Source: Litoreibacter meonggei | GTDB lineage: Bacteria; Pseudomonadota; Alphaproteobacteria; Rhodobacterales; Rhodobacteraceae | NCBI RefSeq assembly: GCF_003663885.1 | Contig: NZ_RCCE01000001.1 | Coordinates: forward strand, 186,001-250,000 | Length of the DNA: 64,000 bases | Direction: 5' to 3' | Part shown: positions 38,447 to 64,000 of the stretch, piece after piece | Numbering within the stretch: the first letter of the stretch is position 1 | How the letters are laid out: each line of letters begins with the position of its first letter | The notes under the pieces: generated by a model | Told to the model about the DNA's origin: nothing | The model's input: the letters and a program-made list of their open reading frames with translations, nothing else | Databases searched by the model: none | Program-made: the position numbers and the translations under genes

Positions 38447-38465
38447 CTATGTGTCCTCCCCAGGA

Positions 38466-43392: not shown

Positions 43393-43409
43393 AGTATTTC
43401 CCTGTTCAG

Positions 43410-44851: not shown

Positions 44852-44871
44852 CATCCGGCTCCTGTTCGTCC

Positions 44872-44909
44872 AAAAAGAAAAGGCCCCCGTGGTGCAATCC
44901 ATGGGGGCC
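44872..44909 (-). terminator. Terminator-like hairpin between GTA terminase and portal genes
   Basis: On the minus strand the sequence forms a GGCCCCC/GGGGGCC stem, one mismatch, three more pairs and a 6-base loop, followed at once by TTTCTTTTT. It has all features of an intrinsic terminator and lies about 20 bases before the portal start codon, in the direction of GTA transcription. Confidence 0.8.
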
Positions 44910-45009
44910 TCGATTGTCTGTCGCATCAGGGCCAAAGCCCTCTCATCGCGTCGTTAAGGGCAATCTAACTCACTGCCCCTAACATCACATTAAACCACCG
45001 TACGGTGCT

Positions 45010-46404
45010 CTATAGCGTGCGTATCCGCGCCTGCGGTGCACTTGCCCCCATCAGTTCCGTCAACGCCCAGACCAACGCGTCCACGCGGTCCGGCGAGTCG
45101 GAGCCCTGAAACCCCGTCACCGTCATCTGGCACATCTGGTCTTCCAACGGCCCCAACGCGCCGAAATGCTTCACCCGCCCCTGTTCATACAATGCCGCCA
45201 CAGGCTCCGCCCGCGCCGCCTTGCCCCGCGAGGCATGGACCGACCGGTACGGCACCATAGGGTCCAGCTGGTGGATCAACGTCTCCACCAGATCGCCCCC
45301 TTGGTTCACCTCCGCCACGATCCGGTCCGCACCGTGCCGCTCGTAAGCTGCCAAGGCCGCATGGGCCCAGCCTGTGGGCGACGCCCCCTCAACGGTCGCA
45401 TCTTCGATCACCACAGCCTCCCAGTCCTTGCCGGACCGCACCAACCCAGCCACCACGATGCCGCAGGCGTCCGACGCCTTCTTAGACGACACAGCCGGGT
45501 CCACCGCGACCACCACCCGCTCGAACTCGGGCAACTCCGTCACCCGCAAATCCTCCAGCATTGACGCCGTCCACAAGGCCCCGTCCAGATCGTCCAGCAA
45601 AATGCCGTCCAATTCCTGACGCCCCATCCGCGTGTTGCCATAGCGGCGGCGCACTTCTTCAAGGAAGGAAGCCGCAAGGTTGTCCTTGTTGGCCTCGGTC
45701 GGCGCATGGGTCACCACCGTCGACCCCGCATCCAGTATCTGTTTCAGCACCGTCACATTGCGTGGCGTGGTCGTAATCACCTGCTGCGGGCGGTCCCCCA
45801 GACGCAGCGCGAACTGCAACTGGTCATAGGCCTCCCGCGCCTTGGTCCACTTGGCCAGCTCATCCACCCAAGCCGCGTCAAACTGCGGCCCACGCATATG
45901 CTCCGGCGAGGACGCGCTATGCGCCTCGGCAATGGCCCCATTGGGCCAAACCAGCCGCCGCCGCGTCGCCTGCCATTCAGGTCGGCGGTCAGGCGGAGAG
46001 CACGCCAGTATCCCGCTATCGCCAAAAATCATCACGTCGCGCACTTGGTCAAAGGTCTCACCCACCAGCGCCACGCGCCGCGCACGGCCCTCGTCGCCCG
46101 GCATGTCGCCCTCGACCATCATCCGGACCCACTCTGCGCCCGCGCGGGTCTTGCCCGCGCCGCGTCCGCCCATGATCACCCAGGACCGCCAATCGCCCGC
46201 AGGCGGCAATTGATGCGGATGCGCCCAGAAATCGAACAGGAACGGCAGCGCCGAGGCCTCCTCGTCGCTCAGCCCCTCAAGAAACGCCTCGCGGATCTCG
46301 TCCGTCGCGGATGCGATCAAGGCGGCGCCTGATCTCAAGCCGGGCCGCTCCAAGATCAACGGCGTATTCTGCGGCGCGCCCGGCACGCTTTCTGCGGTAT
46401 TCAT
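45010..46404 (-). CDS. GTA large terminase subunit (gp2 type)
   Basis: A 464-residue terminase. Walker A is GGRGAGKT (residues 79-86) after WVIMGG; the ATPase continues with FDAAWVDELAKW (Walker B-like) and TTTPRNVTVL. The nuclease domain includes VVVAVDPAVSSKKASDACG with the acidic metal ligand. The ATG at 46404 has an AAGGA site 7 bases upstream, which makes a 128-base overlap with the small terminase gene; a TTG at 46320 would shorten this. It packages random genomic DNA into GTA heads. Confidence 0.94.
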   Translation of the reverse strand: MNTAESVPGAPQNTPLILERPGLRSGAALIASATDEIREAFLEGLSDEEASALPFLFDFWAHPHQLPPAGDWRSWVIMGGRGAGKTRAGAEWVRMMVEGDMPGDEGRARRVALVGETFDQVRDVMIFGDSGILACSPPDRRPEWQATRRRLVWPNGAIAEAHSASSPEHMRGPQFDAAWVDELAKWTKAREAYDQLQFALRLGDRPQQVITTTPRNVTVLKQILDAGSTVVTHAPTEANKDNLAASFLEEVRRRYGNTRMGRQELDGILLDDLDGALWTASMLEDLRVTELPEFERVVVAVDPAVSSKKASDACGIVVAGLVRSGKDWEAVVIEDATVEGASPTGWAHAALAAYERHGADRIVAEVNQGGDLVETLIHQLDPMVPYRSVHASRGKAARAEPVAALYEQGRVKHFGALGPLEDQMCQMTVTGFQGSDSPDRVDALVWALTELMGASAPQARIRTL

Positions 46405-46633
46405 CAAGTTTTCCTTCCGCGTCTCTGCTTGTGTTCAACAGGTGCTGTAGATCGCTCTTCAGCTTCGTCTTGAAGTCCGGCGCGACCGACTGGTCTGCGA
46501 TAACGCGCCGCCATTCCCGTCTGACCTGTGCCGTCAGTTCTCGGGCCATCACCGTCAGGTCTTCCAAAACCTCGTCTACGGATTGGGTCACCAATTGGTC
46601 CGGCAAGCCGGTTGGTTCAGGTGTCTCGTTCAT
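46277..46633 (-). CDS. GTA small terminase-like protein (gp1 type)
   Basis: A 118-residue, highly charged helical protein in the position of RcGTA gp1, the small terminase subunit: DEVLEDLTVMARELTAQVRREWRRVIAD, then KLKSDLQHLLNTSRDAEGKLDEYRRKRAGRAAEYAVDLGAA. First gene of the cluster. Its 3' end overlaps the large terminase by about 128 bases in another frame, an unusually long overlap. A terminator lies only about 57 bases before the start codon. Confidence 0.82.
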   Translation of the reverse strand: MNETPEPTGLPDQLVTQSVDEVLEDLTVMARELTAQVRREWRRVIADQSVAPDFKTKLKSDLQHLLNTSRDAEGKLDEYRRKRAGRAAEYAVDLGAARLEIRRRLDRIRDGRDPRGVS

Positions 46634-50249: not shown

Positions 50250-50291
50250 CCCCAACGACCGCTTCAGAGCATGCCAAAGCGGTCGTTGGGG
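50250..50291. other. Long perfect hairpin (possible bidirectional terminator)
   Basis: A perfect 15-bp stem (arms 50250-50264 and 50277-50291, CCCCAACGACCGCTT) with a 12-base loop, between convergent GST and RidA genes. No T-run on either side, so termination is possible but not typical. Confidence 0.55.
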
Positions 50292-50565: not shown

Positions 50566-50916
50566 TCATGGAATTGGAGCGACGGCAGCTGTTATGATAA
50601 TTTCAACCTTCAGGACATCTCTGGCGAGCTTTGCTTCACCACAAGCTCGCGTGGGGGCGTACCCCAATGGAACCCAAGCGTCCCAAACCTCATTCATCTC
50701 ATTGAAGTCAGCCATATCTGACAACCAAACAATTGCCTGCAGGATGTGTTCACGATCTGACCCAGCTTCCTTGAGCAAAGTATCGACGCGCGAAAGGCAA
50801 TCGCGTGTTTGTTCTGCGACGGTGTCGCCAGCCCCAACCTGACCACAAAGATACACTGTACCATTATGCTTCACGATCTTGCTCATGCGCGTACCAGTTT
50901 GAAGACGTTCAATCAT
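50566..50916 (-). CDS. RidA/YjgF family protein
   Basis: A 116-residue RidA-fold protein: [32 protein letters not shown] and the C-terminal [25 protein letters not shown]. The arginine corresponding to E. coli RidA Arg105 appears present (PTRAC), but the glutamate at the Glu120 position seems replaced by isoleucine, as in several Rid subfamilies without imine deaminase activity. RidA proteins hydrolyse reactive enamines/imines formed by amino acid oxidases, which suits its place downstream of the DAO-type oxidoreductase. GGAAA precedes the ATG. Confidence 0.88.
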
Positions 50917-51044
50917 ATAGGTTTTCCAATCAGTCTAAATCGAGCCAAAACAACACAGTATCAGTTTTTCTGGCGTGGGTTTTCGCAGGGTTTTAAGGAT
51001 CTATGGTCTCGGTTGAGGTAGCCAATCCCCCTTGCTTTCAAAGA

Positions 51045-52166
51045 TCAAGTCGCCGATCTGAAGCGGGTTGGATGGAAGGCTGCGAGCTCATGTTTATTCT
51101 TGTTCCCAAGCAAGCATTCCACAAATAAGTCGGAATGAATTGGAGCCAACGTGATGCCAGAATGGCAAGCTGCCGCACTCGCGGTTTCGGAAAAATCATA
51201 GATTGGTGCGCCATCTGGGGTCATGACGCGCAAACCAGACCAATGGCGAACGACATTCACATCTTTCAGCATCGGTGTAATCCGAGTGGCATTCCGCGCC
51301 AGCTGACCCGCAGCGGCCAGCGACGTTGACTCGTCCAGCCCAACATCCTCTTTGGTCGCACCTACCAAAAAAGTCCCATCGGCCGTCTGCCGTAAAGTAC
51401 TTGCTGGCAACCCCATCACGCGTGGCATGCGTTGGCTTACGATAACTTGGCCTCGTTGCGGTCTTACTGGAACATCTAACCCCAGTTGATTGGCAATTTC
51501 TTTTGTACCCAAGCCCGCTGCAGCAACGACATGGCCTGTTGACACGGTTATTTTCTGGCCACGCAGCGTCCATGAGGCTTCGTCATTTTTTTCAATGGTC
51601 TCCACTTTGGCATCAAAGCAGATCGTCCCCCCGAAACGCTCAATTGCCCGCAGGAGTGCCGCATGTAGTTTCAGCGGATTCACACACCCATCCCGCCAGC
51701 AAAAACTCGCCCCTGACACATCATTACCTAGCTCGAAATCAGGCATCATCTGTTGTATCTCTGACCGATCGATCATTTCATGATCGTCGCCATCCGCGCC
51801 ACGTTCGTTGTGCAGGCGATTGAGCTGGTTCTTTCTTTCTTGAAAGCCGTCCTCGCCAAATGTGAAGGTCAGACCGCCATTTCGCTCATATGCCAGTGAT
51901 CCGCTTGTATCGCCAACAACCCCTGCGATCTCCGCAGCGTAGTCTGGCCAGCCATCCGATGCAGTACGTGTTAACCGTTGATATTCGGGCACACCGGGGC
52001 CCTTGCCCTGCACCCAGACTAAGCCAAAATTAGCGCCTGAAGCTCTTGGGTCGGCCCTAGATCCATCCAATACGACAACTGAGTGACCTCGTCTCAATAG
52101 GCCAAAAGCAATGCTTGCGCCGACGACCCCCGCACCAATCACTGTGAAGTCCGCCGTAAGGTTCAT
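51045..52166 (-). CDS. DAO-type FAD-dependent oxidoreductase (HcnC/OoxB-like subunit)
   Basis: A 373-residue D-amino-acid-oxidase-family protein. The FAD motif GAGVVG is at residues 11-16 (TVIGAGVVGASIAFGLL), with the adenine-contact VVVLDGS and, at the C-terminus, GLRVMTPDGAPIYD with HSGITLAP. The start at 52166 has GGAGG 8 bases before it. It resembles catalytic beta subunits of opine oxidase, HcnC and D-hydroxyproline dehydrogenase, which need two partner subunits; candidates lie at 59985-61566. Divergent from a LysR gene; RidA follows. Confidence 0.85.
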   Translation of the reverse strand: MNLTADFTVIGAGVVGASIAFGLLRRGHSVVVLDGSRADPRASGANFGLVWVQGKGPGVPEYQRLTRTASDGWPDYAAEIAGVVGDTSGSLAYERNGGLTFTFGEDGFQERKNQLNRLHNERGADGDDHEMIDRSEIQQMMPDFELGNDVSGASFCWRDGCVNPLKLHAALLRAIERFGGTICFDAKVETIEKNDEASWTLRGQKITVSTGHVVAAAGLGTKEIANQLGLDVPVRPQRGQVIVSQRMPRVMGLPASTLRQTADGTFLVGATKEDVGLDESTSLAAAGQLARNATRITPMLKDVNVVRHWSGLRVMTPDGAPIYDFSETASAAACHSGITLAPIHSDLFVECLLGNKNKHELAAFHPTRFRSAT

Positions 52167-52240
52167 GTAATTATCCTCCACAGTTTTCTTGACAGTAGAA
52201 ATGCACATGCAGAATGTAAAAGCACAAAGAGTACGCATCA

Positions 52241-52257
52241 TATTCCAAGAGGTTATA
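52241..52257. promoter_or_regulatory. Putative LysR binding site, lysR/DAO promoter
   Basis: TATTCCAAGAGGTTATA matches 14 of 17 bases of TATTCCATAAAGTTATA at 59871-59887 in the other divergent promoter of the island. It overlaps the ribosome site of the LysR gene, so it could serve autoregulation. Confidence 0.6.
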
Positions 52258-52259
52258 CG

Positions 52260-53171
52260 TTGAGAAAACCATCACTGAGACAGCTGGAAGCTTTCAAGGC
52301 CTTCGTCGAAAGCGGAAGCGTTTCTCGGGCTGCCGACGTCCTCCACGTGTCTCAACCTGCTGTGAGCAAACTCCTCAATCATTTTGAGGCGGACATTGGC
52401 ATGCAACTCATTGACCGCAATTCAAACCGGCCCGTCGTCACGGAACGGGGCATTCGTGTATACGAAGAAATCGACAGAATCCTATCCGGTGTCGATCAGG
52501 TCGGCCAAGCAATTGCATCGATCCGCGCAAAGGAACGTAGCCTTATCACCATCGGTGTGATGCCCGGCTTCCCACCACATATTCTGTCTCATGCGGCACA
52601 ACTCGTTAGAAATGAAAGGCCAGACGTCAGCATTTCATTTATTGTCCGAAGCTCGGAATATGTCTCACACGGCATCTTGTCCCGCCAAATGGATCTGGGA
52701 ATTATAGCGCGCAACCTCGACCACCCACAGGTAAATTCGACACTATTTTCAAACGATAGCTTCGTGGCTGTGATGCCCAGGGATCATCAATTCGCTAGCC
52801 AATCAACGGTCAATGTCACTGACCTACATGGCCAGCACTTCATTGCTTTCACACAAGGCAGCGTAACGCGCCGATTAATAGATGAAGCAATGGAAGCTGC
52901 AAAGGTTGAAGCTGATATTATACTCCAAGCCACAACAGCCCCGAATTGTTGCGCATTTGTGGAGGCCGGGTTGGGGCTTTGCGTTATGTCACCGCTCTTT
53001 GCAAAAGGCCATCTTCGCACGTTGGTTGCGCGCCCTTTCGTCCCGAATCTGTCATTGAAAATCCAGACGGTTCACCACGTTGACTCACGTGACAAGCGTG
53101 CGATCGCCTTGGTTCTCAACGCGCTGAAGGAAGCGCGCGATTACTCTGCAAGAACAGACACAGGCCTCTGA
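52260..53171 (+). CDS. LysR family transcriptional regulator of the catabolic island
   Basis: A 303-residue LysR protein: RKPSLRQLEAFKAFVESGSVSRAADVLHVSQPAVSKLL (winged HTH, residues about 2-40 in motif form), then an effector domain with VMPGFPPHILSHA and ATTAPNCCAFVEAGLGLCVMSPLF. The start codon is TTG, with AGAGG 7 bases upstream. It resembles the LysR type that regulates opine catabolism (OccR/NocR-like), but this is a judgement of general pattern. Its 3' end overlaps the convergent MmgE/PrpD gene by 56 bases. Confidence 0.92.
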   Translation: MRKPSLRQLEAFKAFVESGSVSRAADVLHVSQPAVSKLLNHFEADIGMQLIDRNSNRPVVTERGIRVYEEIDRILSGVDQVGQAIASIRAKERSLITIGVMPGFPPHILSHAAQLVRNERPDVSISFIVRSSEYVSHGILSRQMDLGIIARNLDHPQVNSTLFSNDSFVAVMPRDHQFASQSTVNVTDLHGQHFIAFTQGSVTRRLIDEAMEAAKVEADIILQATTAPNCCAFVEAGLGLCVMSPLFAKGHLRTLVARPFVPNLSLKIQTVHHVDSRDKRAIALVLNALKEARDYSARTDTGL

Positions 53172-54477
53172 GCTGTCCAATCCTCAACTCTTCAAAGGCA
53201 AAGATGAACTCATTGCGCTCCTCCACGGAAAGGGTGCGCTGCGTTGAGACATAAAACTTTCGTAGACGTTCGTCCCAACTGGGTCTCGCATTAGCTTCTC
53301 CGCTAGGAGTTGTAACAGGGCTCGCAAATACCTCCTCTCTGGTCTTAACTTCGACAATAACAGGTGTTTCGGCAGGAAAACGCGCTTCACATAAAGGGTC
53401 GGTTTCCACTTTGACCAGCGCAGCGAAAGCCTCTGCCGTTGCATCACCCAGATCGCTCGCGCTCATTGAAAGCAAAACATCTGGACCTTTCAGTGCCACC
53501 AGTGCAACGCAATATGGGATTGAATATTGCGCGTCGACCAGCGTGTTCGGGCGCGGTGAATTAGGGATCCGTAGGGCACCACTATAGGCTCGGACGGTTA
53601 CGCTTTCTACATCGTCGACTAGAAGGCCATGCTCAGATACCAGAGATGCGAACGCTTCAACCGGCGCATGAACATGCCTGCAAGCCGCGTGGAATTTTGT
53701 GTAGGTTTCGCAGATCGCGGGCATTGCCCTATCCGCGAGGATTGCCTCTGCGTCGAAAAACGGCGCATGATCGACCAGATCAACAGCGCCCGTCATTCCC
53801 GCTTGGGCTAAACGAACAGCAGAGATCCCAGTCACAACACCCCACGGAATGCCCTCTTTGACGTCAGTTCCGTTCGGTTGCGGCCATGCTGGCGGCGACG
53901 TAGTCGTCGCCATATGCGGCCCCGTTTCGCCCGCAATAGCGAGTGCATTTGCCATTTCATCTGGGCCTAAATCTTGCAAACTGCCGACCGCTGCTGCTGC
54001 AGCTATGCCAGCCCAAAAGCCTGTGCGCGCATAGAAGCTCTTAGCCCCTGCAACCCGCAGACCGACCTCATAGCCAATCGCGATAGCCCGCAAAACAGCT
54101 TCGTCGTCTATCTCAATTCCAGCAGCGAGGCGGCGGTCTATCTCGGCAAATACGGCAGGCACCACAGCAGCGCCCGGATGACCACGAGATCGGCGATGGC
54201 CGTCATCTAAATCCATATAGGCCGCACTCATTGCATTTGCGAAAGCCGCGCCCTGACAAGAGGCCGTCAATCCCGAGAACCAAACTGCGGAATCTCCTGT
54301 GCCGTAGGTGTCTTGAACGGCCTCCGCAAATCGGAACCGTGGGGCAGCCGCTGCCGCTGTTATCGTATCTAGAACGGCCTCTATTGCTGCCTGCCTAGCT
54401 TCCTGGCTGAGAACAAAGCCCTCAGCCATGTCAGCCAGTTCAACAAGAACCGGCCTTAGTCTTCCGGATTGTGGCAT
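53116..54477 (-). CDS. MmgE/PrpD family protein
   Basis: A 453-residue protein of the MmgE/PrpD fold, which includes 2-methylcitrate dehydratase, iminodisuccinate epimerase and cis-aconitate decarboxylase. Visible family segments are MSAAYMDLDDGHRRSRGHPGAAVVPAVFA near residue 85-110 and YTKFHAACRHVHAPVEA near 260. The ATG at 54477 has GGAG 7 bases upstream and overlaps the preceding ABC ATPase gene by 22 bases. It is the last gene of the leftward ABC operon. The likely role is dehydration, isomerisation or epimerisation of the imported substrate or its product. Confidence 0.9.
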   Translation of the reverse strand: MPQSGRLRPVLVELADMAEGFVLSQEARQAAIEAVLDTITAAAAAPRFRFAEAVQDTYGTGDSAVWFSGLTASCQGAAFANAMSAAYMDLDDGHRRSRGHPGAAVVPAVFAEIDRRLAAGIEIDDEAVLRAIAIGYEVGLRVAGAKSFYARTGFWAGIAAAAAVGSLQDLGPDEMANALAIAGETGPHMATTTSPPAWPQPNGTDVKEGIPWGVVTGISAVRLAQAGMTGAVDLVDHAPFFDAEAILADRAMPAICETYTKFHAACRHVHAPVEAFASLVSEHGLLVDDVESVTVRAYSGALRIPNSPRPNTLVDAQYSIPYCVALVALKGPDVLLSMSASDLGDATAEAFAALVKVETDPLCEARFPAETPVIVEVKTREEVFASPVTTPSGEANARPSWDERLRKFYVSTQRTLSVEERNEFIFAFEELRIGQLRGLCLFLQSNRALPSAR

Positions 54478-55424
54478 GCAAAACTCCGTTGATCATAAGT
54501 GGCCTGCAATGCGGGTGCTTCGCGCAGACAAATCTCGGATGCGCGCGGGCAACGTGGATGAAACGCACACCCGGATGGGGGATTGGCTGGCGAAGGTATC
54601 TCTCCTTCAAGCAGCGCTAGAGACTGACGCTTTCCCACGTCTGGGATCGGTGCCGCATCGCGGAGCGATTTTGTATAAGGGTGCTTGGGATTTGACAAAA
54701 GCTCACCGACGGGCCCACTTTCCACAATGCTGCCCAGATACATGACAAGCACGCGGTCGCAGAAATTTCGCACGACCCCGAGATCGTGTGTGATAAACAA
54801 ATAACTCAATCCCCGCTCTTGCTGGATGCGTCGCAGCAGCAACAATACCTGCGCCTGAACAGACACATCCAAAGCAGACACAGACTCATCTGCAACGATC
54901 AGGTCAGGCTCTAGAATAAGAGCGCGCGCAATCGCGATTCGTTGCCTTTGCCCACCCGAAAACTCATGCGGATATTTATCAACTGCACTTCTTGGCATGC
55001 CAACTTCGTCAAGGACGGCATGAATGCGTGGCAAGGCATCCTTAAATTTCACCCCTTGGTGAACATACAATGGCTCCGCAAGGGTCTTCCCTATAGTTCG
55101 CTTGCCATTCAAAGACGAATACGGGTCTTGGAAAATCATCTGAATGCGTCCGCGCATTTTGCGTTTGGAGGCCGGATCGAGAGCCGTTAGATCCGTTCCG
55201 TCAAACAGAACTGACCCCGTAGTTGGCGTAATCAAATCAAGAACACAGCGTGCAAGAGTTGATTTTCCGCATCCGGACTCTCCAACAACTCCAACTGTCT
55301 CCCCCTTTGCGATCGTAAACGAAACATTGCGCAGGGCCGTGACCGAATACGCGGGCTTCATAGACAGAAAGCGCTTGGACCCGAACGTCTTTCCCATGCC
55401 ATCTACAATCAAAAGTCCAGTCAT
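54456..55424 (-). CDS. ABC transporter ATP-binding protein, oligopeptide type (DppF/OppF-like)
   Basis: A 322-residue ATPase. Walker A GESGCGKST near residue 50, signature FSGGQRQRIAIARAL near 155, Walker B DLIVADE near 180. The C-terminus has the Cys-containing oligopeptide extension CAFHPRCPRASEICLREAPAL found in OppF/DppF. Start at 55424 has GGAGGAG upstream and overlaps the previous stop (ATGA). Confidence 0.94.
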   Translation of the reverse strand: MTGLLIVDGMGKTFGSKRFLSMKPAYSVTALRNVSFTIAKGETVGVVGESGCGKSTLARCVLDLITPTTGSVLFDGTDLTALDPASKRKMRGRIQMIFQDPYSSLNGKRTIGKTLAEPLYVHQGVKFKDALPRIHAVLDEVGMPRSAVDKYPHEFSGGQRQRIAIARALILEPDLIVADESVSALDVSVQAQVLLLLRRIQQERGLSYLFITHDLGVVRNFCDRVLVMYLGSIVESGPVGELLSNPKHPYTKSLRDAAPIPDVGKRQSLALLEGEIPSPANPPSGCAFHPRCPRASEICLREAPALQATYDQRSFACHNPED

Positions 55425-56380
55425 ACTCTCTCCTCCCTTGCCCAACACCGCACGGCATGGGGGCCCGGTGAAAGTTCAGGTGCTACTTCGCAGGCGTCAT
55501 GAGCTTCCAAGCAACGTGGTGCAAATCGACACCCTTCTGGCATCAATTGTATTGGCGGGACTTGCCCTTCAATTGGTAACAACTCAAACGCTTCATCCGC
55601 GCGCGGCACCGTCTTTAGAAGCGCTTGCGTGTAAGGATGGGAAGGCGCCGTGAAAAGATCCGCAACCGGCGCGGTTTCAACCAAGTCGCCTGCGTACATA
55701 ACAGCAACGCGATCAGCGACATTAGCGACAACTCCAAGGTCATGGGTGATCATAACAATGGAAAGTCCTTGCTCTTTTCGAATGTCATCGAGCAATGCTA
55801 AGACTTGGGCTTGGATTGTCACGTCCAACGCCGTCGTCGGCTCATCTGCGATCAAGATCTCAGGCCGGCATGCAAGGCCGATTGCAATCATGACCCTCTG
55901 ACGCATACCACCCGACAGTTCATGCGGGTATTGACCCAACCTTTGTTCAGCATCTGGAATTCTAACCAAGTCGAGCAAATTGCGTGCCTCGCGGCGCGCA
56001 TCAGACCACGTCATCCCTTTGTGCAGCACAAGTGGTTCTGCGATCTGCTCACCAACAGTCAGTACCGGATTAAGAGATGTCATTGGCTCTTGGAAGATCA
56101 TCGCAATGCGGCTGCCGCGGATGCCCTCCAGTTCCTTTTCTTTCATTGACAGGATGTCCTGCCCGTCAAAGGTAATTTTTCCCCCAAGCTGCGCGGTATC
56201 TGGCAACAACTTCATCAGCGACATCGCTGTAATGCTCTTACCACAACCAGACTCGCCAACGATGCACAGGGTTTCATTGGGAAGTATATCGAATGAGATA
56301 CCGTTTACTGCACGACACCAACGATCTTCAATCTTGAACGAAATAGACAGGTCTTCGACTGTCATGAGTGGAGTGGTCAT
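55421..56380 (-). CDS. ABC transporter ATP-binding protein, oligopeptide type (DppD/OppD-like)
   Basis: A 319-residue ATPase. Walker A GESGCGKSI near residue 42, signature LSGGMRQRVMIAIGL near 155, Walker B EILIADEPT near 180, and the C-terminal Cys extension CRFAPRCLEAHDACEVAPEL. Starts 3 bases after the permease. Confidence 0.95.
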   Translation of the reverse strand: MTTPLMTVEDLSISFKIEDRWCRAVNGISFDILPNETLCIVGESGCGKSITAMSLMKLLPDTAQLGGKITFDGQDILSMKEKELEGIRGSRIAMIFQEPMTSLNPVLTVGEQIAEPLVLHKGMTWSDARREARNLLDLVRIPDAEQRLGQYPHELSGGMRQRVMIAIGLACRPEILIADEPTTALDVTIQAQVLALLDDIRKEQGLSIVMITHDLGVVANVADRVAVMYAGDLVETAPVADLFTAPSHPYTQALLKTVPRADEAFELLPIEGQVPPIQLMPEGCRFAPRCLEAHDACEVAPELSPGPHAVRCWAREERV

Positions 56381-56383
56381 GAT

Positions 56384-57253
56384 CTAATCCCTAAGCTTTG
56401 GGTCAATTGCGTCTCGCAATCCGTCACCAACCAAATTGAGTGATAGGACGACAAGAAGGACAGCGAAACCTGGATAGATAGAAACAAATGGAGCATCTAG
56501 AATGTGATTAAATCCATCACGGATCATTGTTCCAAGCGTTGGTGTTGGCGGAGCCACACCAAGACCAATGAAACTTAGGTAGGCTTCAATGCGGATTGCG
56601 TAGGCAGCCCAAAGAGAGGCCAACACGACGACTTCACCGAGAATATTCGGCGCAATGTGCACCGCCATGATGCGAATGTCGGAGTAACCCAATGCACGCG
56701 CTGCTTCGACGAATTCGCGCTCCTTCAAAGCGATAGTTGGCGCACGTGCGACGCGTGCGAACTTTGGCAGGATCGTAACTGTGATCGCCAAAACGATGTT
56801 GACGAAATTCGCCCCTAAAACTGCGACAATAAACAGGCCCGTTATCAACGTCGGAAACGCCAGGAGCATATCCATGACCCGCATGATCAGGCTATCTACC
56901 CATCCACCGCGATACCCTGCGATAATTCCCAATGAGCACCCTAAAACCATCGCAAGAAACGTGGATGTCAGACCAATCATGAGCGAGACACGGAGCCCGT
57001 ACAGAATGCGGGTAAAGGTATCCCGACCGAAAGTATCTGTCCCCAGAATATATTCTGCAGAGCGATCCTGTAGGCGATCAAGAATATTTTGATCTAGCGG
57101 ATCATGTGGCGAGATGAACGGTGCAAAAATCGAAGCCAACACTATAAGGGTAAACATCAAAAGTCCGAAGGCAGACAGCTTGTTCTTGCGCGCAAGCCTT
57201 AGCAAGGAAGCAGTTCTGGTGCGTTGGGGAGTGTTTGTATCTGCTAAAGTCAT
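56384..57253 (-). CDS. ABC transporter permease, oligopeptide type (DppC-like)
   Basis: A 289-residue permease with six membrane segments and the N-terminal domain typical of DppC/OppC (LARKNKLSAFGLLMFTLIVLASIFAPFISPHDP). The EAA-type loop is VEAARALGYSDIRIMAVHIAPN. Start at 57253 overlaps the previous permease stop (ATGA). Confidence 0.94.
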   Translation of the reverse strand: MTLADTNTPQRTRTASLLRLARKNKLSAFGLLMFTLIVLASIFAPFISPHDPLDQNILDRLQDRSAEYILGTDTFGRDTFTRILYGLRVSLMIGLTSTFLAMVLGCSLGIIAGYRGGWVDSLIMRVMDMLLAFPTLITGLFIVAVLGANFVNIVLAITVTILPKFARVARAPTIALKEREFVEAARALGYSDIRIMAVHIAPNILGEVVVLASLWAAYAIRIEAYLSFIGLGVAPPTPTLGTMIRDGFNHILDAPFVSIYPGFAVLLVVLSLNLVGDGLRDAIDPKLRD

Positions 57254-58188
57254 TTCAATTTCACCCTTGGATCTACCAGCGCGTAGCAAATGTCTGTCAA
57301 AAGATTCACGATTACGATAAGGAAGGCGGAGATAACCATTAGGCCCTGCAACGTCGTGTAATCACGTTGGTTGAGCGACAGAACGATGAGCTTTCCCAGG
57401 CCAGGTCTATTGAAGATGATCTCCGTCAGGACGGCGTTGCCAATCAGAAGACCGAAGTACAATCCGACGACGGTGACGATCGGGATCAGCGCGTTTCTTA
57501 GTGCGTGATGCAAAATCAACCTGCGACCGGGAGCCCCTTTTGCCCGTGCGGTTCGGATGTAGTCCTCTCCCAAAACATCCAGCATAGCAGAGCGCGCTGT
57601 ACGCATAATGTAAGCAACCATAATCACGCCAAGGCTCAGGGCAGGAAGAATGAGATTGTAGATCCGGTCGATTGGCCCGCCCGTGGGCGATGAGATGACC
57701 GGGAATATGCGCCATTCGATCGAGAGCCACAAAATAAGCAGAATGGCAGTCAGGAATGCAGGGAAGCTAAGTCCCAGTAGGGAAACGACTCGAAGGAAAT
57801 AGTCGAGCCACCCATTTCGCCAAAGTGCCGAGATAATCCCGAGGGGCAGGCCAATGATGATGCCAAAGAAGATCGCACCTAACGCCAATTCAAGCGTGTA
57901 AGGCAAGACTTCCATGACGGACGTCACAACAGGTTTGCCGCTAACCATGGATGTCCCGAGGCTTCCTTGAGCGAGGTCACTTAGAAACCGTCCAAATTGA
58001 ACCAGCATGGAGTCGTTCAGTCCCATGCGGTCACGAAAGGCGTCGAGTGCCTCCTGTGAGGCATTGTCACCAAGTATTGCGAGCGCCGGATCACCCGGAG
58101 CGACCCGGATCATTACGAAAACAATCACCAAAACTCCGAAAAGTGTTGGGATGGTGCTGAGTAAGCGCTTTGTTATGAAACCAATCAT
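57250..58188 (-). CDS. ABC transporter permease, oligopeptide type (DppB-like)
   Basis: A 312-residue permease: LLSTIPTLFGVLVIVFVMIRVAPGDPA at the N-terminus, the conserved loop DYIRTARAKGAPGRRLILHHALRNALIPIVTV, and six membrane segments. It imports small peptides, opines or related ligands with the partner permease. Confidence 0.95.
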   Translation of the reverse strand: MIGFITKRLLSTIPTLFGVLVIVFVMIRVAPGDPALAILGDNASQEALDAFRDRMGLNDSMLVQFGRFLSDLAQGSLGTSMVSGKPVVTSVMEVLPYTLELALGAIFFGIIIGLPLGIISALWRNGWLDYFLRVVSLLGLSFPAFLTAILLILWLSIEWRIFPVISSPTGGPIDRIYNLILPALSLGVIMVAYIMRTARSAMLDVLGEDYIRTARAKGAPGRRLILHHALRNALIPIVTVVGLYFGLLIGNAVLTEIIFNRPGLGKLIVLSLNQRDYTTLQGLMVISAFLIVIVNLLTDICYALVDPRVKLK

Positions 58189-58242
58189 TTTGTCCCTCCC
58201 GAAAGAGCAGAGGCGGGGTACCCGCCTCTGCTAATAGTTACA

Positions 58243-59790
58243 TTATTCGGACAAGGTCGTCTTTTCGGTAATGACCGGGCCAAGTGAAAGCGACCCGTCA
58301 AGTTCATAGCCGAGGTTGACTTCGGGCGCGCGCGCCCAAACCTGGAGCAACTCGAAAACAGGGATCGAACAGACTTCATCGACGATCAATTGTTGAGCCT
58401 CACTCCACAATTCCTGTTGGCGCTCTCCGTTGGGCTCTGATCGAGCAGCGATAATTTGCTCGTCTGCTACGTTGCAATGCGAGAAGTTCGTCACGGCTGT
58501 TGGCGTCTTCACAATACTGTCTGAGTGGTAGAACTGAGTCAGATAAGTGTCCGCAACAGGGAAGCGCGCAGCGCCATAAAGGACCAAAGAACTCGCATCG
58601 TCTCGGATCGCCGCGTGCCACGCGGAATGTTCCATCACATCCAGCTCCAGGTTGATACCCACTTGGCTCAATTGAGCCTGCAAGACCTGCATAGGACCGA
58701 AAAGCGAGGCACGTTCTGTGATTGCTACCGGAACCGTTACGCCGTCTGGATAACCTGCCTCGGCTAGCAGCTCGCGGGCGCGATCTGGGTCGTATGACAG
58801 GAATTCCAAATCGGGCTCATGGCCAATATAGCCATCTGGAACGGGTGACTCATTGCCGCGAGCGACCGAAGCACCCGCAAAGGCAATCAGTTCTTCACGG
58901 TTGACCGCATGTGCAAGAGCCTGACGGACACGAATGTCATCAAAGGGTGCCATTGCTGTGTTTACGTGAAGGGTACGCAATTCGCCGGGCTCAAAAACAT
59001 CAACGACGCTTTCGCCGGACGCTGTCATCGAGTTGACCCAACGATCCTCCCGTGACCCAGCGATCATGTGCAGTTCACCTGTCTGGAATGCCAGATCGCG
59101 GGCACTGATCGCTGAGATGTATCGCACGGTGATCTTGTCAATCTCAGGCGAGCCTCGGAAGTAATCTTCATGTGCGACGAGTTCGAGATATTGCCCTTCA
59201 ACCAATTCGCCATAAGCAAACGGACCGGTTCCGATCGGGTTCGTTTTGAAGTCTTCACCAAGTTCTTCCGCAGCGCGGGCAGAAACGATGTTACCACCGT
59301 GGTAGTTCGCGACAACGCCCAGAAGGCTTGGAATGACTTCAGAGAGTGTGATGCGAACTGTGTAATCGTCGATGGCCTCGACGCTTTGGAACGCTCGGTA
59401 GTCCGAAGATACACTGGAACGGCTTTCATCGCCCGCCCGTGTCAGGGAATAGACCACATCATTCGATGTCATTTCACCGTAGCCACCGTGAAACTGCACG
59501 CCTTGGAGTAGCCTGAATGTCCAAGTCAGGCCGTCTTCGGAAACTTCCCAGCTTTCTGCCAAATCCGGCTCAATTGCATCCGAACTCATGGACCCAGGCG
59601 CGAACCGAACCAGACCATTGAACATCATTCCAAAGACGGTCTTGTCCTCAGTCTTCGTTGATACATGAGGATCAAGTTGCCCGGCACTCTGAGCAGCCAC
59701 GGCCATCGTGAGCTCTTGGGCTTGCAAGGGCATGACAAGAGCGCCTGTCGCGAACAGGGTGGCAATTGCTGTGTTTCTGAGTAGTTTCAT
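58243..59790 (-). CDS. ABC transporter substrate-binding protein, SBP_bac_5 family
   Basis: A 515-residue periplasmic protein. The signal peptide is MKLLRNTAIATLFATGALVM (first 20 residues) ending in PLQAQ, cut near residue 25. The mature domain has the DppA/OppA pattern: GLTWTFRLLQGVQFHGG, VRQALAHAVNREELI, YDPDRARELLAEAGYPDG. First gene of the leftward operon; GGAGG lies 8 bases before the ATG. The ligand-binding residues cannot be read off; it may bind di/oligopeptides, opines or amino-acid derivatives. Confidence 0.95.
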   Translation of the reverse strand: MKLLRNTAIATLFATGALVMPLQAQELTMAVAAQSAGQLDPHVSTKTEDKTVFGMMFNGLVRFAPGSMSSDAIEPDLAESWEVSEDGLTWTFRLLQGVQFHGGYGEMTSNDVVYSLTRAGDESRSSVSSDYRAFQSVEAIDDYTVRITLSEVIPSLLGVVANYHGGNIVSARAAEELGEDFKTNPIGTGPFAYGELVEGQYLELVAHEDYFRGSPEIDKITVRYISAISARDLAFQTGELHMIAGSREDRWVNSMTASGESVVDVFEPGELRTLHVNTAMAPFDDIRVRQALAHAVNREELIAFAGASVARGNESPVPDGYIGHEPDLEFLSYDPDRARELLAEAGYPDGVTVPVAITERASLFGPMQVLQAQLSQVGINLELDVMEHSAWHAAIRDDASSLVLYGAARFPVADTYLTQFYHSDSIVKTPTAVTNFSHCNVADEQIIAARSEPNGERQQELWSEAQQLIVDEVCSIPVFELLQVWARAPEVNLGYELDGSLSLGPVITEKTTLSE

Positions 59791-59871
59791 CGAATGTTCC
59801 TCCACTGGTGATATTTCGTCCAACAGACCCTCTGGCTATCTTAACGTCAAATACCGTTTTGAGGCTGTAAT

Positions 59872-59912
59872 ATTCCATAAAGTTATAATGAGAGAGTATA
59901 ACTTTATGGAAT
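59872..59912. promoter_or_regulatory. 16-bp inverted repeat, divergent ABC / ferredoxin-subunit promoter
   Basis: Perfect arms ATTCCATAAAGTTATA (59872-59887) and TATAACTTTATGGAAT (59897-59912) with a 9-base spacer ATGAGAGAG, between the substrate-binding protein and the [2Fe-2S] subunit genes. The left arm plus the preceding T repeats the site at 52241. Strong candidate operator of the island LysR. Confidence 0.75.
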
Positions 59913-59984
59913 GCTGGTAGGCATATTTCCGACTTCAATTAATGATACGGCTCTGGCACCTTAGTCTTGAATCGCGAGGTGAGT

Positions 59985-60236
59985 ATGCCAATACATTTAC
60001 AAATCGACGGACAGTTATGCGACGCCGAAGAAGGTGAATGTCTTGCAACCGTGATCTTTCGCCAGAAATCAAATGTCTTTAGGCATCACCCCGTGGATGG
60101 TTCACCGCGAGCTGCCTTTTGCATGATGGGTGTTTGCTTTGAGTGTTTGGTTGAGGTGAATGGCATAGCAGGCCAGCAGTCTTGTCTCATCCAAGTTCAA
60201 GATGGCATGATAGTAAGGCGAGCCCCAAATGATTGA
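59985..60236 (+). CDS. Small [2Fe-2S] protein (HcnA / OoxC-like subunit)
   Basis: An 83-residue protein of the HcnA/D-hydroxyproline dehydrogenase gamma type. Cysteines at 46, 51, 54 and 67 form C-x4-C-x2-C-x12-C, the plant-type [2Fe-2S] ligand set. The ATG at 59985 has GAGG 5 bases upstream; an in-frame codon 18 bases earlier lacks a site. Overlaps the FAD gene by 8 bases. It should pass electrons within a three-subunit dehydrogenase. Confidence 0.9.
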   Translation: MPIHLQIDGQLCDAEEGECLATVIFRQKSNVFRHHPVDGSPRAAFCMMGVCFECLVEVNGIAGQQSCLIQVQDGMIVRRAPND

Positions 60237-61566
60237 TTTCCTTATTGTTGGCGCTGGTCCTGCTGGGATGTCAGCTGCGGTAGAAGCTATAAAACATGGA
60301 GCACATCCCGTTGTCGTGGACAACAGGCCAGAGCCCGGTGGTAACATATATGCCTATCTCGGCAGCAACCGCTCCCACCGCACCGAGCGCATGCACATAT
60401 TTGGCCCAGACTACGCCAAAGGCGCGGCGTTGCTTGACGCATTCTTGGCTGCGGTTGCAGAGCAGAAGATTACTTATCATGCCTCAACAAAGCTCTGGCA
60501 GGTCGGTCCACAAGGAGGCTATGCCTTCCATGGCCCTGACGGATCACAATCTGGAATAGCGAAGAAAATACTGCTAGCAACAGGCGCGCAAGAGCGGCCT
60601 ATGCCCATATCAGGCTGGACATTGCCAGGTGTCATGGGTGTTGGCGCCGCTCAAATATTGATGAAGTCTGGGGGTGAGCTGCCGAAAGGCAACATCGTTA
60701 TCGTTGGTGCTGGCCCGCTTCCTTTACTACTTACCGAACAACTCCACCAAGCAGGCCGTCCGGTCTCTGCTGTTGTTGAACCGAAAGGCTCTTCGAAACT
60801 ACTCGCCGCCTCCTCACAACTTCTCGGGGCGGCGGCCGCCTTCAAAACATCGTCAAAAGGCGCGGTACTTTTGGCAAAGCGCTTCTTGAGACGTACGCCT
60901 GTGTGGCGCAATGCCAGCGGCTTGAAAATCATTGGAAACGAGCAAGCAACTGGAATTCAGTTTACGGCAGAGAAAGCAGTAGACCTTCAGGCTTCAATCG
61001 TCCTCATTCATGACGGCATAATACCCAACCTGAATCCACTTCTTGCAGCGTCCTTGGACACCAAATACTCGCAGCAACAACAAACATGGCACGCCCAATC
61101 AAAGGGCGCCGTTTACATCGCTGGTGATGGGGCTGGTATCTTGGGCGTTGAAGCCGCAGTCCTCTCAGGTCGAATGGCCACTTTGGACGCATTGGGCCAA
61201 TCAAACTCTCCAAGAGACATAAGAAAATATGCTAAGTTGAAGGCTTTTCGAAAGTTCATTGATGCCGCTTACCCGGCCGTTCAAACAGCAACACATGCTG
61301 AGGCGAACACTATCCTTTGCCGTTGCGAAATGATAACAGCTGGTGACGTACGGCAGGCTGTTGAAGTACACGGGACGGACCCTAACGCGATAAAGCGTTC
61401 TCTCAGGATTGGCATGGGGCCTTGTCAGGGGCGAATGTGTGCACACTCCTTGGCAGATTTCACCGCAGCAGTAAGCGGTGTGAGTTCAGAGGACATAGGC
61501 CTACAGCGGGCACGAAGCCCCATTCTTCCTGTGAGCTTTCGCGCACTCAGCGCTTTGAAAGATTGA
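60229..61566 (+). CDS. FAD/NAD(P)-binding oxidoreductase with C-terminal Cys cluster (HcnB/OoxA-like subunit)
   Basis: A 445-residue protein. First dinucleotide motif GAGPAG at residues 8-13, then ATGAQERPMPISGW-type loop near 120-140 and a second nucleotide segment NIVIVGAGPLPLL near 160. C-terminal domain has Cys at 364, 366, 399 and 404 (C-x-C and C-x4-C), the ligand set of the BFD-like [2Fe-2S] domain in HcnB/OoxA. It is the alpha subunit of opine oxidase/HCN synthase/D-hydroxyproline dehydrogenase-type complexes. Confidence 0.9.
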   Translation: MIDFLIVGAGPAGMSAAVEAIKHGAHPVVVDNRPEPGGNIYAYLGSNRSHRTERMHIFGPDYAKGAALLDAFLAAVAEQKITYHASTKLWQVGPQGGYAFHGPDGSQSGIAKKILLATGAQERPMPISGWTLPGVMGVGAAQILMKSGGELPKGNIVIVGAGPLPLLLTEQLHQAGRPVSAVVEPKGSSKLLAASSQLLGAAAAFKTSSKGAVLLAKRFLRRTPVWRNASGLKIIGNEQATGIQFTAEKAVDLQASIVLIHDGIIPNLNPLLAASLDTKYSQQQQTWHAQSKGAVYIAGDGAGILGVEAAVLSGRMATLDALGQSNSPRDIRKYAKLKAFRKFIDAAYPAVQTATHAEANTILCRCEMITAGDVRQAVEVHGTDPNAIKRSLRIGMGPCQGRMCAHSLADFTAAVSGVSSEDIGLQRARSPILPVSFRALSALKD

Positions 61567-62354: not shown

Positions 62355-63224
62355 CTACCGGTCCAACAATTTCCAAAACGCTATGACGGGCGCACGCATC
62401 ATTTCTTTTTCATATCTTATTTTCCGCAGTTCCCGCTGACTTACCGAATGGGCCGGAACAAAAAACTCTACCCCATCGGGCTGGTTGCGCACTGCGTCAA
62501 ACGGTAAAATGCTGGCCCCGAGCCCGCGCCGCACAAACGATAGGATTGCCGTCGTATTGCGCGCCTCAAGGGTGCTGGAGAAACGCAGTTCACTGACAAT
62601 CGGATCATCGACCAGCTCGCAAAGCGGGTTAGCGATCAAAGGCTCAAGGCTGAGCAGCCCCCAATCGGATGCGCCTTGGGTGTCCAGATGCGCCCTATGG
62701 ATGGGCCCGTTTTCGGGACAAACGATGCCCAGGTCGTCAGACCGAATGCGTTCACCCTCCAACGGGGCGTCAGGCCGTGCTGATACGATTCCAATGTCGG
62801 CCTCATCGCGTTGAACACGTGCGCGGACAGTTGCGCTGTCTACATCGCTGATCTCAATTCGCACATCAGGGTGGACGGCGCGAAATGCCTCAATCACATC
62901 TGGCAGCAAGGCCACTGTTGCGGACGGCACCGCCGCGATACGAACGATTCCTGCAGTCGATATCGCATGACGGCGGATTGCATCAGAACTTTTGTCAAAA
63001 ACATCGATGGCACGCTGACTTTCTTCCAGAACAAGCTGACCCAGTGGCGTTAGGCGGCTCTTTCTATCTGTCTCAAACAGGGTGCCGCCAACTTCTTTTT
63101 CAAATTGCGCCAACATCATGGACACCGCAGAAGGTGTCCGGCCCAAAACGGCGGCAGCCGCAGCAAGTGTGCCCTGCGCTGCCGTAACCGAGAATGCTCT
63201 GAGCATTTCGACCTTAATGGACAT
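62355..63224 (-). CDS. LysR family transcriptional regulator
   Basis: A 289-residue LysR protein: VEMLRAFSVTAAQGTLAAAAAVLGRTPSAVSMMLAQFE (HTH within residues 5-42, motif form) and an effector domain from about residue 90 (GIVRIAAVPSATVALLPDVIEAF). It is divergent from an aldehyde dehydrogenase gene with a 90-base spacer that contains a T-N11-A palindrome over its own start codon, suggesting autoregulation and control of the neighbour. Confidence 0.92.
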   Translation of the reverse strand: MSIKVEMLRAFSVTAAQGTLAAAAAVLGRTPSAVSMMLAQFEKEVGGTLFETDRKSRLTPLGQLVLEESQRAIDVFDKSSDAIRRHAISTAGIVRIAAVPSATVALLPDVIEAFRAVHPDVRIEISDVDSATVRARVQRDEADIGIVSARPDAPLEGERIRSDDLGIVCPENGPIHRAHLDTQGASDWGLLSLEPLIANPLCELVDDPIVSELRFSSTLEARNTTAILSFVRRGLGASILPFDAVRNQPDGVEFFVPAHSVSQRELRKIRYEKEMMRAPVIAFWKLLDR

Positions 63225-63239
63225 TCAGAATTCCTGAAT
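63223..63239. promoter_or_regulatory. T-N11-A palindrome at the LysR/ALDH promoter
   Basis: ATTCAG-AATTC-CTGAAT is a perfect inverted repeat of the LysR-type T-N11-A form, overlapping the LysR start codon and facing the aldehyde dehydrogenase promoter. Confidence 0.65.
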
Positions 63240-63314
63240 AAATGTTCAATTGTTTGAGAATGACTGAAGTTACCGCAGCGGTCTAGACCATATTTAAACA
63301 AATTGGAGACCAGC

Positions 63315-64000
63315 ATGACCGATCTTACGCAACTTTATATTGATGGCGCATGGACAGATGGGGCGACTCAAATCGAAAACCGCAACCCATCTGACACGTC
63401 GGACTTGATTGGGATGTATGCGCAAGCGGATGCGAGCCAGTTGGATGCGGCGCTTGCCGCCGCACGCCGTGCGCAATCTAAGTGGTGGGCCGCAGGCATT
63501 CAGAAGCGTCACGATGTGCTAATGGCAATCGGCACAGAATTGATGGCGCGCGCCGAAGAGATCGGGCGCATTTTGTCACGCGAAGAAGGCAAGCCGGTTG
63601 CCGAAGGTAAGGGGGAAGTGTACCGCGCTGGACAGTTCTTTACCTATTTTGCCGGAGAAACCCTGCGCCAGCATGGCGACCAGGCCGAGAGCGTGCGTCC
63701 GGGTATCGAGATTGACGTGCGCCGCGAGCCGGTCGGTGTTGTGGCGATCATCAGCCCTTGGAACTTTCCTGTGGCGACCCCTGCCTGGAAAATTGCCCCA
63801 GCGCTGGCCTTCGGCAACGCCGTCGTCTGGAAGCCTGCCAATGTTACCCCTGCCAGCGCCATTGCCCTGACCGAGATTATCTCTCGGCAGGACATTCCCA
63901 AAGGCCTGTTCAACCTCGTCGCCGGTCCCGGCCGCGATGTGGGGCAGCGCCTTGTAGAAAGCGCGCAAGTGGACGCGATCAGCTTTACCGGTTCCGTCCC
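63315..64000 (+). CDS. Aldehyde dehydrogenase family protein (cut by window edge)
   Basis: The first 228 residues of an ALDH. GGAG lies 6 bases before the ATG. MTDLTQLYIDGAWTDG starts the fold; VGVVAIISPWNFPVATPAWKI is the conserved N-terminal motif and AFGNAVVWKPANVTPASA the cofactor-binding loop; SFTGSV at the edge is the start of the NAD loop. The catalytic Cys is beyond the window. The pattern resembles alpha-ketoglutaric semialdehyde or glucarate-pathway ALDHs (YcbD-like), a tentative reading. Divergent from LysR. Confidence 0.93.
   Translation, partial: MTDLTQLYIDGAWTDGATQIENRNPSDTSDLIGMYAQADASQLDAALAAARRAQSKWWAAGIQKRHDVLMAIGTELMARAEEIGRILSREEGKPVAEGKGEVYRAGQFFTYFAGETLRQHGDQAESVRPGIEIDVRREPVGVVAIISPWNFPVATPAWKIAPALAFGNAVVWKPANVTPASAIALTEIISRQDIPKGLFNLVAGPGRDVGQRLVESAQVDAISFTGSV

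Follow-up and report, generated by a model that had tools for sequence, protein, structure and literature searches.

A probable horizontally acquired opine-catabolism island with a split three-subunit flavin dehydrogenase in Litoreibacter meonggei

How could a three-subunit flavin dehydrogenase be produced as one enzyme when its genes lie in two separate transcription units, and which substrate would it serve? A locus of Litoreibacter meonggei raises both questions. The window analysed here is a stretch of 64,000 nucleotides (C1:186001-250000 of a 3.95-Mb genome, 99.97% complete), and the island under study occupies window positions 50566-61566. We consider it likely that this is a horizontally acquired opine-catabolism island with a split three-subunit flavin dehydrogenase. 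Its gene identities, homologies, synteny, motifs, a conserved DNA site and an unusual composition were established by computation. All open frames were found at the coordinates given in an earlier reading of this DNA, here called the initial annotation. Statements attributed to PMC4575208, PMC6733357, PMC10410297, PMC7347537 and PMC7312458 refer to the portions of these papers that were covered. The features, in gene order, are as follows.

50250-50291, minus strand: terminator-like hairpin past the end of the RidA gene; 18-pair stem, by far the longest listed
50566-50916, minus strand: RidA-family imine/enamine hydrolase (PF01042)
51045-52166, minus strand: DAO-type oxidoreductase, type-1 beta subunit of opine dehydrogenase, OdhB/NoxB/OoxB/SacE type (PF01266, 1.1e-55; tree; R-x-W)
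52242-52257, plus strand: putative LysR operator, single copy, 2 bases before the LysR start (pattern conservation)
52260-53171, plus strand: LysR regulator, SacR/LecR type (Pfam; identity to SacR/LecR)
53116-54477, minus strand: MmgE/PrpD-family protein, proposed opine epimerase/isomerase (N and C domains in Pfam; PDB profile; model; Foldseek)
54456-55376, minus strand: importer ATP-binding subunit, OppF type (Pfam scan; 51% to the C-terminal half of SacD)
55421-56380, minus strand: importer ATP-binding subunit, OppD type (Pfam scan; 54% to the N-terminal half of SacD)
56384-57289, minus strand: importer permease, DppC/SacC type (Pfam scan; 54% to SacC)
57250-58188, minus strand: importer permease, DppB/SacB type (Pfam scan; 59% to SacB)
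58243-59823, minus strand: substrate-binding protein (SBP), MoaA/SacA/LecA class (SBP family 5, PF00496; PDB match)
59872-59912, no strand assigned: putative LysR operator pair with 16-bp arms, 100% complementary, and a 9-bp spacer, between the divergent SBP and Fer2 genes
59985-60236, plus strand: OdhC-type [2Fe-2S] gamma subunit, Fer2 (PF13510, Fer2_4, 2.1e-23; cysteine motif)
60229-61566, plus strand: OdhA/NoxA/SacG-type alpha subunit, flavin adenine dinucleotide (FAD) protein with four-cysteine motif (PF17806, SO_alpha_A3, 37.8 bits; motifs; tree)

The initial annotation had assigned the three enzyme genes to the subunit types of HcnABC, opine oxidase and D-hydroxyproline dehydrogenase, and Pfam, motifs and trees bear this out: a DAO-fold beta, a [2Fe-2S] gamma and an FAD/four-cysteine alpha are all present. 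Open frames, Pfam and a motif check also confirmed the genes and cysteine motifs that it described, C46-x4-C-x2-C-x12-C in gamma and C364-x-C366-x32-C399-x4-C404 in alpha. GxGxxG is present in both alpha and beta, and beta carries R307-x-W, so that each of the opine-dehydrogenase motifs checked (ADP-binding, both [2Fe-2S], beta R-x-W) was found. The x32 spacing in alpha is that of OoxA and SacG (x33 in NoxA), unlike the x15-20 printed in PMC4575208. The beta frame is readable from 52241 too; its homologues align from the ATG at 52166. In a tree of 65 beta sequences, the window's protein and those of three relatives with the same split layout form a clade (100/100) nested within a 34-row type-1 clade (100/100) that contains NoxB, OoxB, SacE and the first betas of Bosea, Rhizobium and Bradyrhizobium clusters; SacH, LecH and the second betas sit in the other part of the tree. 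The same four islands form a clade in the alpha tree (100/100), which does not fix their position among the remaining rows, and the inner branching order of the clade is identical in the two trees (support 97-100 for beta and 93-98 for alpha). No HcnC or D-hydroxyproline dehydrogenase rows were included, and the type-1 placement is therefore relative; within this scope the two trees agree, whereas the initial annotation had named unrelated clades as a result that would speak against its proposal.

The beta gene lies 7.8 kb from the gamma and alpha genes and on the other strand, consistent with the two separate transcription units proposed earlier. Gamma and alpha adjoin while beta stands apart in the window and in three relatives, which departs from the tandem layout usual for the family. 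In Jannaschia marina (genome G310, contig C16, locus L059, to which L136 is identical in sequence) the whole set of eleven genes recurs in unchanged order, with 61-88% protein identity, and because of this complete synteny we do not regard the arrangement as chance. The split order is shared by Epibacterium ulvae (L065) and Nioella ostreopsis (L064), though tblastn detected no RidA in the stretch from Nioella; the island genes thus co-occur in three other Rhodobacterales. All four split islands retain the beta, gamma and alpha genes. The island RidA is 81-82% identical to the RidA of the Epibacterium and Jannaschia islands.

A conserved site, ATTC-N6-GTTAT, is present at the LysR start and between the SBP and Fer2 genes, and hence at both transcription units of the window. 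The copies between SBP and Fer2 form an inverted repeat with 16 of 16 positions paired; together with the copy at the LysR start they are the three exact matches to ATTCCAWRARGTTATA in the window. Allowing three mismatches or fewer gave four matches, against a shuffle mean of 0.70 and four matches in 0 of 100 shuffles. Both sites recur in the three relative islands with at most two mismatches. The pattern came from the window itself, and two positions were relaxed once the LysR-side matches in relatives were known (ATTC[CGT]-N5-GTTAT[AG], one mismatch allowed); only after this loosening were SBP-side matches sought beyond the four split islands. Of 30 distinct loci (LysR of at least 150 bits; loci below 4500 bases and listed repeats excluded), 26 have the loosened pattern no more than 40 bp from the LysR start, among them pTiEU6 and pTiBo542; L081, L087, L150 and L173 do not. 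The pattern lies 20-250 bp before the SBP gene in 18 of 29 distinct loci. Control gene starts in the same loci, with duplicates kept, gave 1/283 by the LysR criterion and 7/283 by the SBP criterion. Four loci occur twice in the scan, and the distinct counts derive from 27/32 and 20/33 rows. Bosea or Boseaceae account for 8 of the 26 site-bearing LysR loci and for 8 of the 18 site-bearing SBP loci, and these are therefore not independent. Weak matches mean little alone, because the strict pattern with two mismatches finds 12 in the window and 7.4 in mononucleotide shuffles.

No match was found 20-250 bp before sacA of pTiEU6, and the gene starts scanned in the octopine and nopaline plasmids gave none either. 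At the LysR start, the GG within the site could double as a ribosome-binding site, so that conservation there may be partly translational; ribosome binding does not explain the SBP-side and inverted copies. The pattern contains T-N11-A, which is usual for LysR sites. The site is unmentioned in the literature portions covered, in which no word search was aimed at it. Because the same operator-like site stands at both transcription units, the split subunits probably belong to a single regulon, and the site is the strongest evidence for this. Scans for generic sigma-70 promoters and for terminators gave counts no higher than shuffles (12 terminator-like sites across the region against 12.4).

The genes for uptake and regulation point to the substrate class. 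The nearest solved chains to the SBP are 6tfq, 6tfs and 6tfx (E 3.6e-160, 537 bits), the next chain following at 2.4e-47; 6TFX is MoaA of Rhizobium radiobacter (PMC7312458, Table 4). The SBP is 48% identical to SacA and 49% to LecA. We take MoaA to be a binder of mannopinic acid. LysR is 42% identical to SacR of pTiEU6, 38% to LecR of pTiBo542 and 30%, over a shorter stretch, to OccR. By homology, then, importer, LysR and binding protein match the sac/lec succinamopine/leucinopine class of Ti plasmids. The pTiEU6 genes sacA, R, E, F, G, H, B, C and D were assigned to succinamopine catabolism by homology and the tumour opine (PMC6733357); we found them (L144) as SBP, LysR, beta1, gamma, alpha, beta2, DppBC and a fused ATPase beside opine-synthase-family genes. 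Like sac (pTiEU6) and lec (pTiBo542, pTiChry5, pTi6.2), the window combines a family 5 SBP, DppBC, ATPases, LysR and dehydrogenase subunits; identities to EU6 and Bo542 are 48-49% for SBP, 56-59% for DppB and 38-42% for LysR, and the operator-like site is common to the window and sacR, lecR and lecA. Unlike them, the window has no second beta (SacH/LecH) and its island genes include no asparaginase or hydantoinase, whereas it has MmgE/PrpD and RidA, unfused ATPases and a beta separated from gamma-alpha.

Other members of the family allow further comparison. Purified OdhABC of P. putida is a nopaline dehydrogenase with FAD, FMN and [2Fe-2S], and OdhB1-C-A-B2 of B. japonicum yields two octopine dehydrogenases (PMC4575208). 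The window resembles both in subunit types, cofactor motifs and type-1 beta; both have tandem gene arrays (B-C-A or B1-C-A-B2), whereas in the window B is separate and B2 is missing. These two enzymes were likened by description, the Bradyrhizobium locus in our comparison being that of strain STM 3843 (L078). NoxBA and OoxBA share 36-37% (beta) and 34-36% (alpha) identity with the window's subunits. The octopine operon holds ooxB, a (2Fe-2S) gene, ooxA, RidA and ocd, and so has RidA in common with the island. The nopaline and octopine Ti systems differ in importer class (by annotation) and in a more distant LysR, and unlike the window the stretches fetched have no MmgE/PrpD annotated. HcnABC and D-hydroxyproline dehydrogenase, likened by description, have the same three-subunit architecture (PMC4575208). 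The novelty claimed by the initial annotation was thus too strong, since PMC4575208 describes flavin-containing opine dehydrogenase and PMC6733357 the Ti-plasmid sac/lec genes: to judge from its homologies, the island holds a catabolic module of this known kind. What is new is the split layout, the operator link and the MmgE/PrpD link.

The type of beta subunit suggests a stereochemical prediction. The LEC region of pTi6.2 contains lecABCD, odh, sacE, sacF, sacG and lecR, and goes with a leucinopine judged to be D,L, which its own strain consumes and Bo542 and Chry5 do not (PMC10410297). Table 2 of PMC6733357 gives no sacE counterpart for Bo542 and Chry5, and in the lec regions that we fetched from both the only beta is the type-2 LecH. 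Octopine and nopaline, the substrates of type-1 enzymes, are also of D,L type (PMC4575208). By analogy, the type-1 beta would be the D,L-specific one, and since the window has a type-1 beta only, its predicted substrate is a D,L-opine (D,L-iminodiacid). Weak oxidation of octopine by the type-2 BjOdhAB2C (Km 19.5 mM; PMC4575208) counts against a strict rule of this kind.

We next consider MmgE/PrpD, which the initial annotation had called no standard partner of the known systems. A genome-wide scan with the window and Jannaschia proteins as queries yielded 80 loci, kept from 87 relatives. The full type-1 beta/gamma/alpha trio lies within the fetched stretch in 24 of these 80, and MmgE/PrpD is therefore a recurrent partner of Odh modules after all. 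The remaining 56 have no full trio, some because contigs end there; contigs ending inside a cluster were scored as misses. An earlier count of 28/80 had taken in four rhizobial loci with a DAO protein nearer to type-2 beta, and was corrected when an OdhB2 query was added and these four were excluded. Beta and gamma adjoin in 21 of the 24 trio loci (19 with a second beta) and are split in 3. The carriers include Bosea, Bradyrhizobium, Rhizobium, Pelagibius, Agaricicola, Paralcaligenes and metagenome-assembled genomes. The pairing also occurs on plasmids of Terrarubrum and Paracoccus (contiguous B-C-A, MmgE/PrpD broken by IS256) and on pAt2788b, with RidA (72% identical to the island's) and a different importer. 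In the covered open-licence literature the opine-mmgE link is that of PMC6733357, whose mmgE is a distant relative (21% identical).

Several other loci with MmgE/PrpD were recorded in their own right. On pAt2788b (L150, 12919-24052) MmgE/PrpD, an amidase, LysR, another ABC importer, beta, gamma, RidA and an alpha annotated as two frames stand together. A Pseudochrobactrum plasmid (L155, 5041-13263) carries DppBC, an ATPase, MmgE/PrpD and an SBP (51.5% identical to that of the window), together with RidA and just one DAO-type oxidoreductase; it may be a one-subunit variant of this scheme. On pTiCG78 (L145, 3184-13399) DppBC, an ATPase and MmgE/PrpD lie beside hydantoinase/oxoprolinase genes and near an opine-synthase-family gene, with no Odh subunits annotated in the stretch. 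In the rhizobial loci L102, L103, L115, L116, L118, L120, L121, L125 and L140, MmgE/PrpD is divergent from beta and alpha with an ABC ATPase beyond; the four betas included in the tree (L102, L103, L115, L121) fall in its type-2 part.

Which reaction might MmgE/PrpD catalyse? At E <= 0.01 the protein alone matches in the PDB only chains of iminodisuccinate (IDS) epimerase and B. subtilis IRG1, the best being the epimerase 2hp0/2hp3 (1.5e-16 alone, 1.7e-50 as a profile). The profile, built from 21 opine-linked and related rows with pTiEU6 mmgE among them, scores 175 bits for IDS epimerase, 135 for B. subtilis IRG1, at most 91 for mammalian decarboxylase and at most 43 for 2-methylcitrate dehydratases, which by this measure are not its nearest kin. 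No NCBIfam model matched the protein at 0.001. An AlphaFold2 model (predicted local distance difference test, pLDDT, 87.6) shows the family fold. H99 and Y145 are the proposed epimerase bases, both found in B. subtilis IRG1 too (PMC7347537). The window's H100 aligns with H99 and is invariant in all rows compared; Y149 is conserved, and its alignment to Y145 is ambiguous, varying with gap placement. IDS epimerase acts on a secondary-amine tetracarboxylate; it is 22% identical in the structural alignment and sits on a separate branch. IDS is a secondary amine linking two dicarboxylic acids and is chemically near succinamopine. Because of this closeness and the profile and PDB matches, an epimerase is the role that we favour as most likely. 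Membership by tree was not found, the opine-linked proteins branching apart from IDS epimerase, and pTiEU6 mmgE was rejected as a direct precedent, being 21% identical and on its own branch.

From these results we infer a substrate, an electron acceptor, an epimerase step, LysR binding and assembly of the complex. The Dpp-type importer and MoaA/SacA-class SBP would import a secondary amine of the opine type (an iminodiacid), with N-substituted glutamate or a similar dicarboxylate as its most likely core. MmgE/PrpD most likely epimerises its alpha-carbon before oxidation, as IDS epimerase does. Beta (51045-52166), gamma (59985-60236) and alpha (60229-61566) would then oxidise the C-N bond and pass electrons to the respiratory chain, and RidA would speed hydrolysis of the imine to amino acid and 2-oxo acid. 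A LysR of SacR/LecR type would bind the putative site at both divergent promoters, so that the subunits are co-produced despite the split. The uptake, oxidation and imine hydrolysis of an N-substituted amino acid that the initial annotation put forward are supported to this extent.

Several observations weigh against this picture. MmgE/PrpD occurs with SBP, DppB and DppC matches in 34 of the 80 loci, of which only 18 have the trio by a looser count, and in three sac-like clusters of the family the stretch fetched gave no MmgE/PrpD match. Foldseek places B. subtilis and mammalian IRG1 above IDS epimerase (IRG1 first at 2.2e-19, IDS epimerase 2.1e-17, dehydratases 2.3e-16 and weaker), and the MmgE/PrpD tree, in which reference rows sit on long branches, separates the opine-linked proteins from IDS epimerase and IRG1, which pair together. 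For the beta tree the program warned of long branches meeting, with the window's row or clade among those named. At about 50% identity to MoaA, SacA and LecA the SBP is too distant for its ligand to be named. To our knowledge this bacterium has no opine source. The split-island clade has no characterised enzyme in the open-licence literature covered, and the family's substrates are wide-ranging, extending from opines to D-hydroxyproline and to HCN synthase (PMC4575208).

Such breadth leaves room for alternatives. Rather than an opine, the same machinery might serve a D-amino acid, an amino acid with an N-methyl or N-carboxymethyl group, or a cyclic imino acid (D-hydroxyproline, for example), with MmgE/PrpD as dehydratase or isomerase of the released skeleton. 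This is improbable. The best NCBIfam scores of beta, glycine oxidase ThiO and then D-amino acid dehydrogenase, would suit it, though both fall below cut-off, the family does include D-hydroxyproline dehydrogenase (PMC4575208), and RidA fits amino acid imines too; yet importer, LysR, operator and SBP are all of the sac/lec/MoaA opine class. As the initial annotation had noted, hydroxyproline is not indicated: no proline epimerase/racemase or pyrroline deaminase is among the island and flanking proteins scanned, and that route was rejected. MmgE/PrpD might instead act downstream of an opine, as a 2-methylcitrate/citrate-type dehydratase or a cis-aconitate-type decarboxylase, for example on propionate from the amine part. 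We regard this as possible, although unlikely; the family name speaks for it, as do the IRG1-like predicted fold in Foldseek and the role offered for pTiEU6 mmgE in PMC6733357, a suggestion that its low identity and separate branch make non-transferable. The profile scores run the other way, and the island proteins include none of prpB or prpC type.

Pairing of the distant beta with another enzyme is very unlikely, as is its acting alone, with Fer2/FAD as a separate two-subunit enzyme. The initial annotation had asked about a complete hcn-like set elsewhere, and one does exist on contig C3 (L005, 8764-15844); the pairing, however, is not needed, because that set is self-contained (RidA, OdhA, OdhC, OdhB, the TRAP importer DctP/M/Q and LysR) and all four split islands keep their three genes. 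Its subunits are 35-43% identical to the island's (beta 36-37%), though its RidA reaches 74%, and a pairing of the split beta with it was rejected. Two B. japonicum betas do share one alpha/gamma pair, and PpOdhB alone is nearly inactive (PMC4575208); the common operator-like site and the matching clade and inner order of the beta and alpha trees argue for the island's own three subunits. A search for a hidden second beta with Pelagibius OdhB2 gave 20 matches, none claimed as OdhB2, the best outside the window's own beta (C4, E 1.2e-26, 25% identity) lying beside a sarcosine-oxidase-type gene. Recycling of an opine-type metallophore of the staphylopine/pseudopaline kind is hardly credible. Such metallophores are opine-like and Dpp/Nik/Cnt-type importers are related, but no nicotianamine-like synthase or TonB receptor is among the proteins scanned, and the SBP scores 537 bits to MoaA against 156 for the NikA and 91 for the CntA model.

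How did the island arrive? Near 50 kb of the window, GC content drops from ~0.60-0.65 to 0.50-0.55. The island's value is 0.524; window 1-50000 has 0.599, and eleven further stretches of this genome range over 0.545-0.624. At third codon positions (GC3) the island genes have 0.44-0.60, against 0.71-0.83 in seven hand-picked other window genes. Because of this low GC and GC3, the island was probably acquired horizontally. A GC of 0.52-0.60 persists ~10 kb past the island, in the region of a LysR, aldehyde dehydrogenase, dipeptidase and BCCT unit; the fetched stretches have 0.56 in Jannaschia, 0.52 in Epibacterium and 0.63 in Nioella. ARAGORN found no tRNA in the window, and no integrase is among the flanking proteins scanned.

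In a survey of 394 family genomes from 393 genera, some alpha-subunit match occurs in 337; among the matches listed, identity passes 60% only in the window's genome and in Jannaschia, the next being 42%. An SBP of this class (E <= 1e-100) occurs in 7 of the 394: two hold the islands just named, G358, G183 and G234 carry the three sac-like clusters mentioned above, with contiguous B-C-A and a second beta, G360 has the SBP with MmgE/PrpD and RidA, and G013 the importer only. Among other Rhodobacterales, Agaricicola (L073, with MmgE/PrpD) and the Paracoccus plasmid also have contiguous B-C-A. The split island is rare and patchy, and from this distribution, rather than a rooted reconstruction, we take its layout as probably derived.

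On this evidence, crown-gall opine machinery is part of a wider chromosomal and plasmid module, reaching Rhodobacterales from marine genera, that shares a regulatory DNA site and a recurrent MmgE/PrpD partner. The link between the IDS-epimerase fold and opine stereochemistry is testable, and the generic annotations of such genes ('HcnC', 'FAD-dependent oxidoreductase', '2-methylcitrate dehydratase') can be corrected. More speculatively, and with rather little confidence, we suggest that the opine-linked MmgE/PrpD subfamily is an undescribed epimerase making the diastereomer that the dehydrogenase accepts; type-1-only islands would use D,L-opines as such and L,L-opines once epimerised, and in this way some algal- or animal-associated marine bacteria would feed on host opines. 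Ostreopsis and Ulva appear in the species names of two carriers, hints at hosts that are names only.

Some further loci were noted. Contig C6 of Jannaschia (L060, 10475-10702) carries a 76-77-residue alpha C-terminal piece, 64% identical and near another Dpp-type importer, which is maybe a remnant. A Leisingera caerulea plasmid (NZ_CP081094, L153) has LysR, OdhB-C-A, an amino acid-type ABC importer, RidA and arginase, and looks like a cluster for octopine/nopaline-type (arginine opine) use. The unit adjoining the island (window 62355-64000 and L007 1356-10228) encodes LysR, an aldehyde dehydrogenase, an M19 dipeptidase, a BCCT transporter, a 573-aa protein and DUF3726. Window 31843-46407 is a gene-transfer-agent-like cluster that encodes a terminase, a portal protein, a prohead protease and a capsid protein along with a GTA_TIM/phage-tail protein of 1317 aa.

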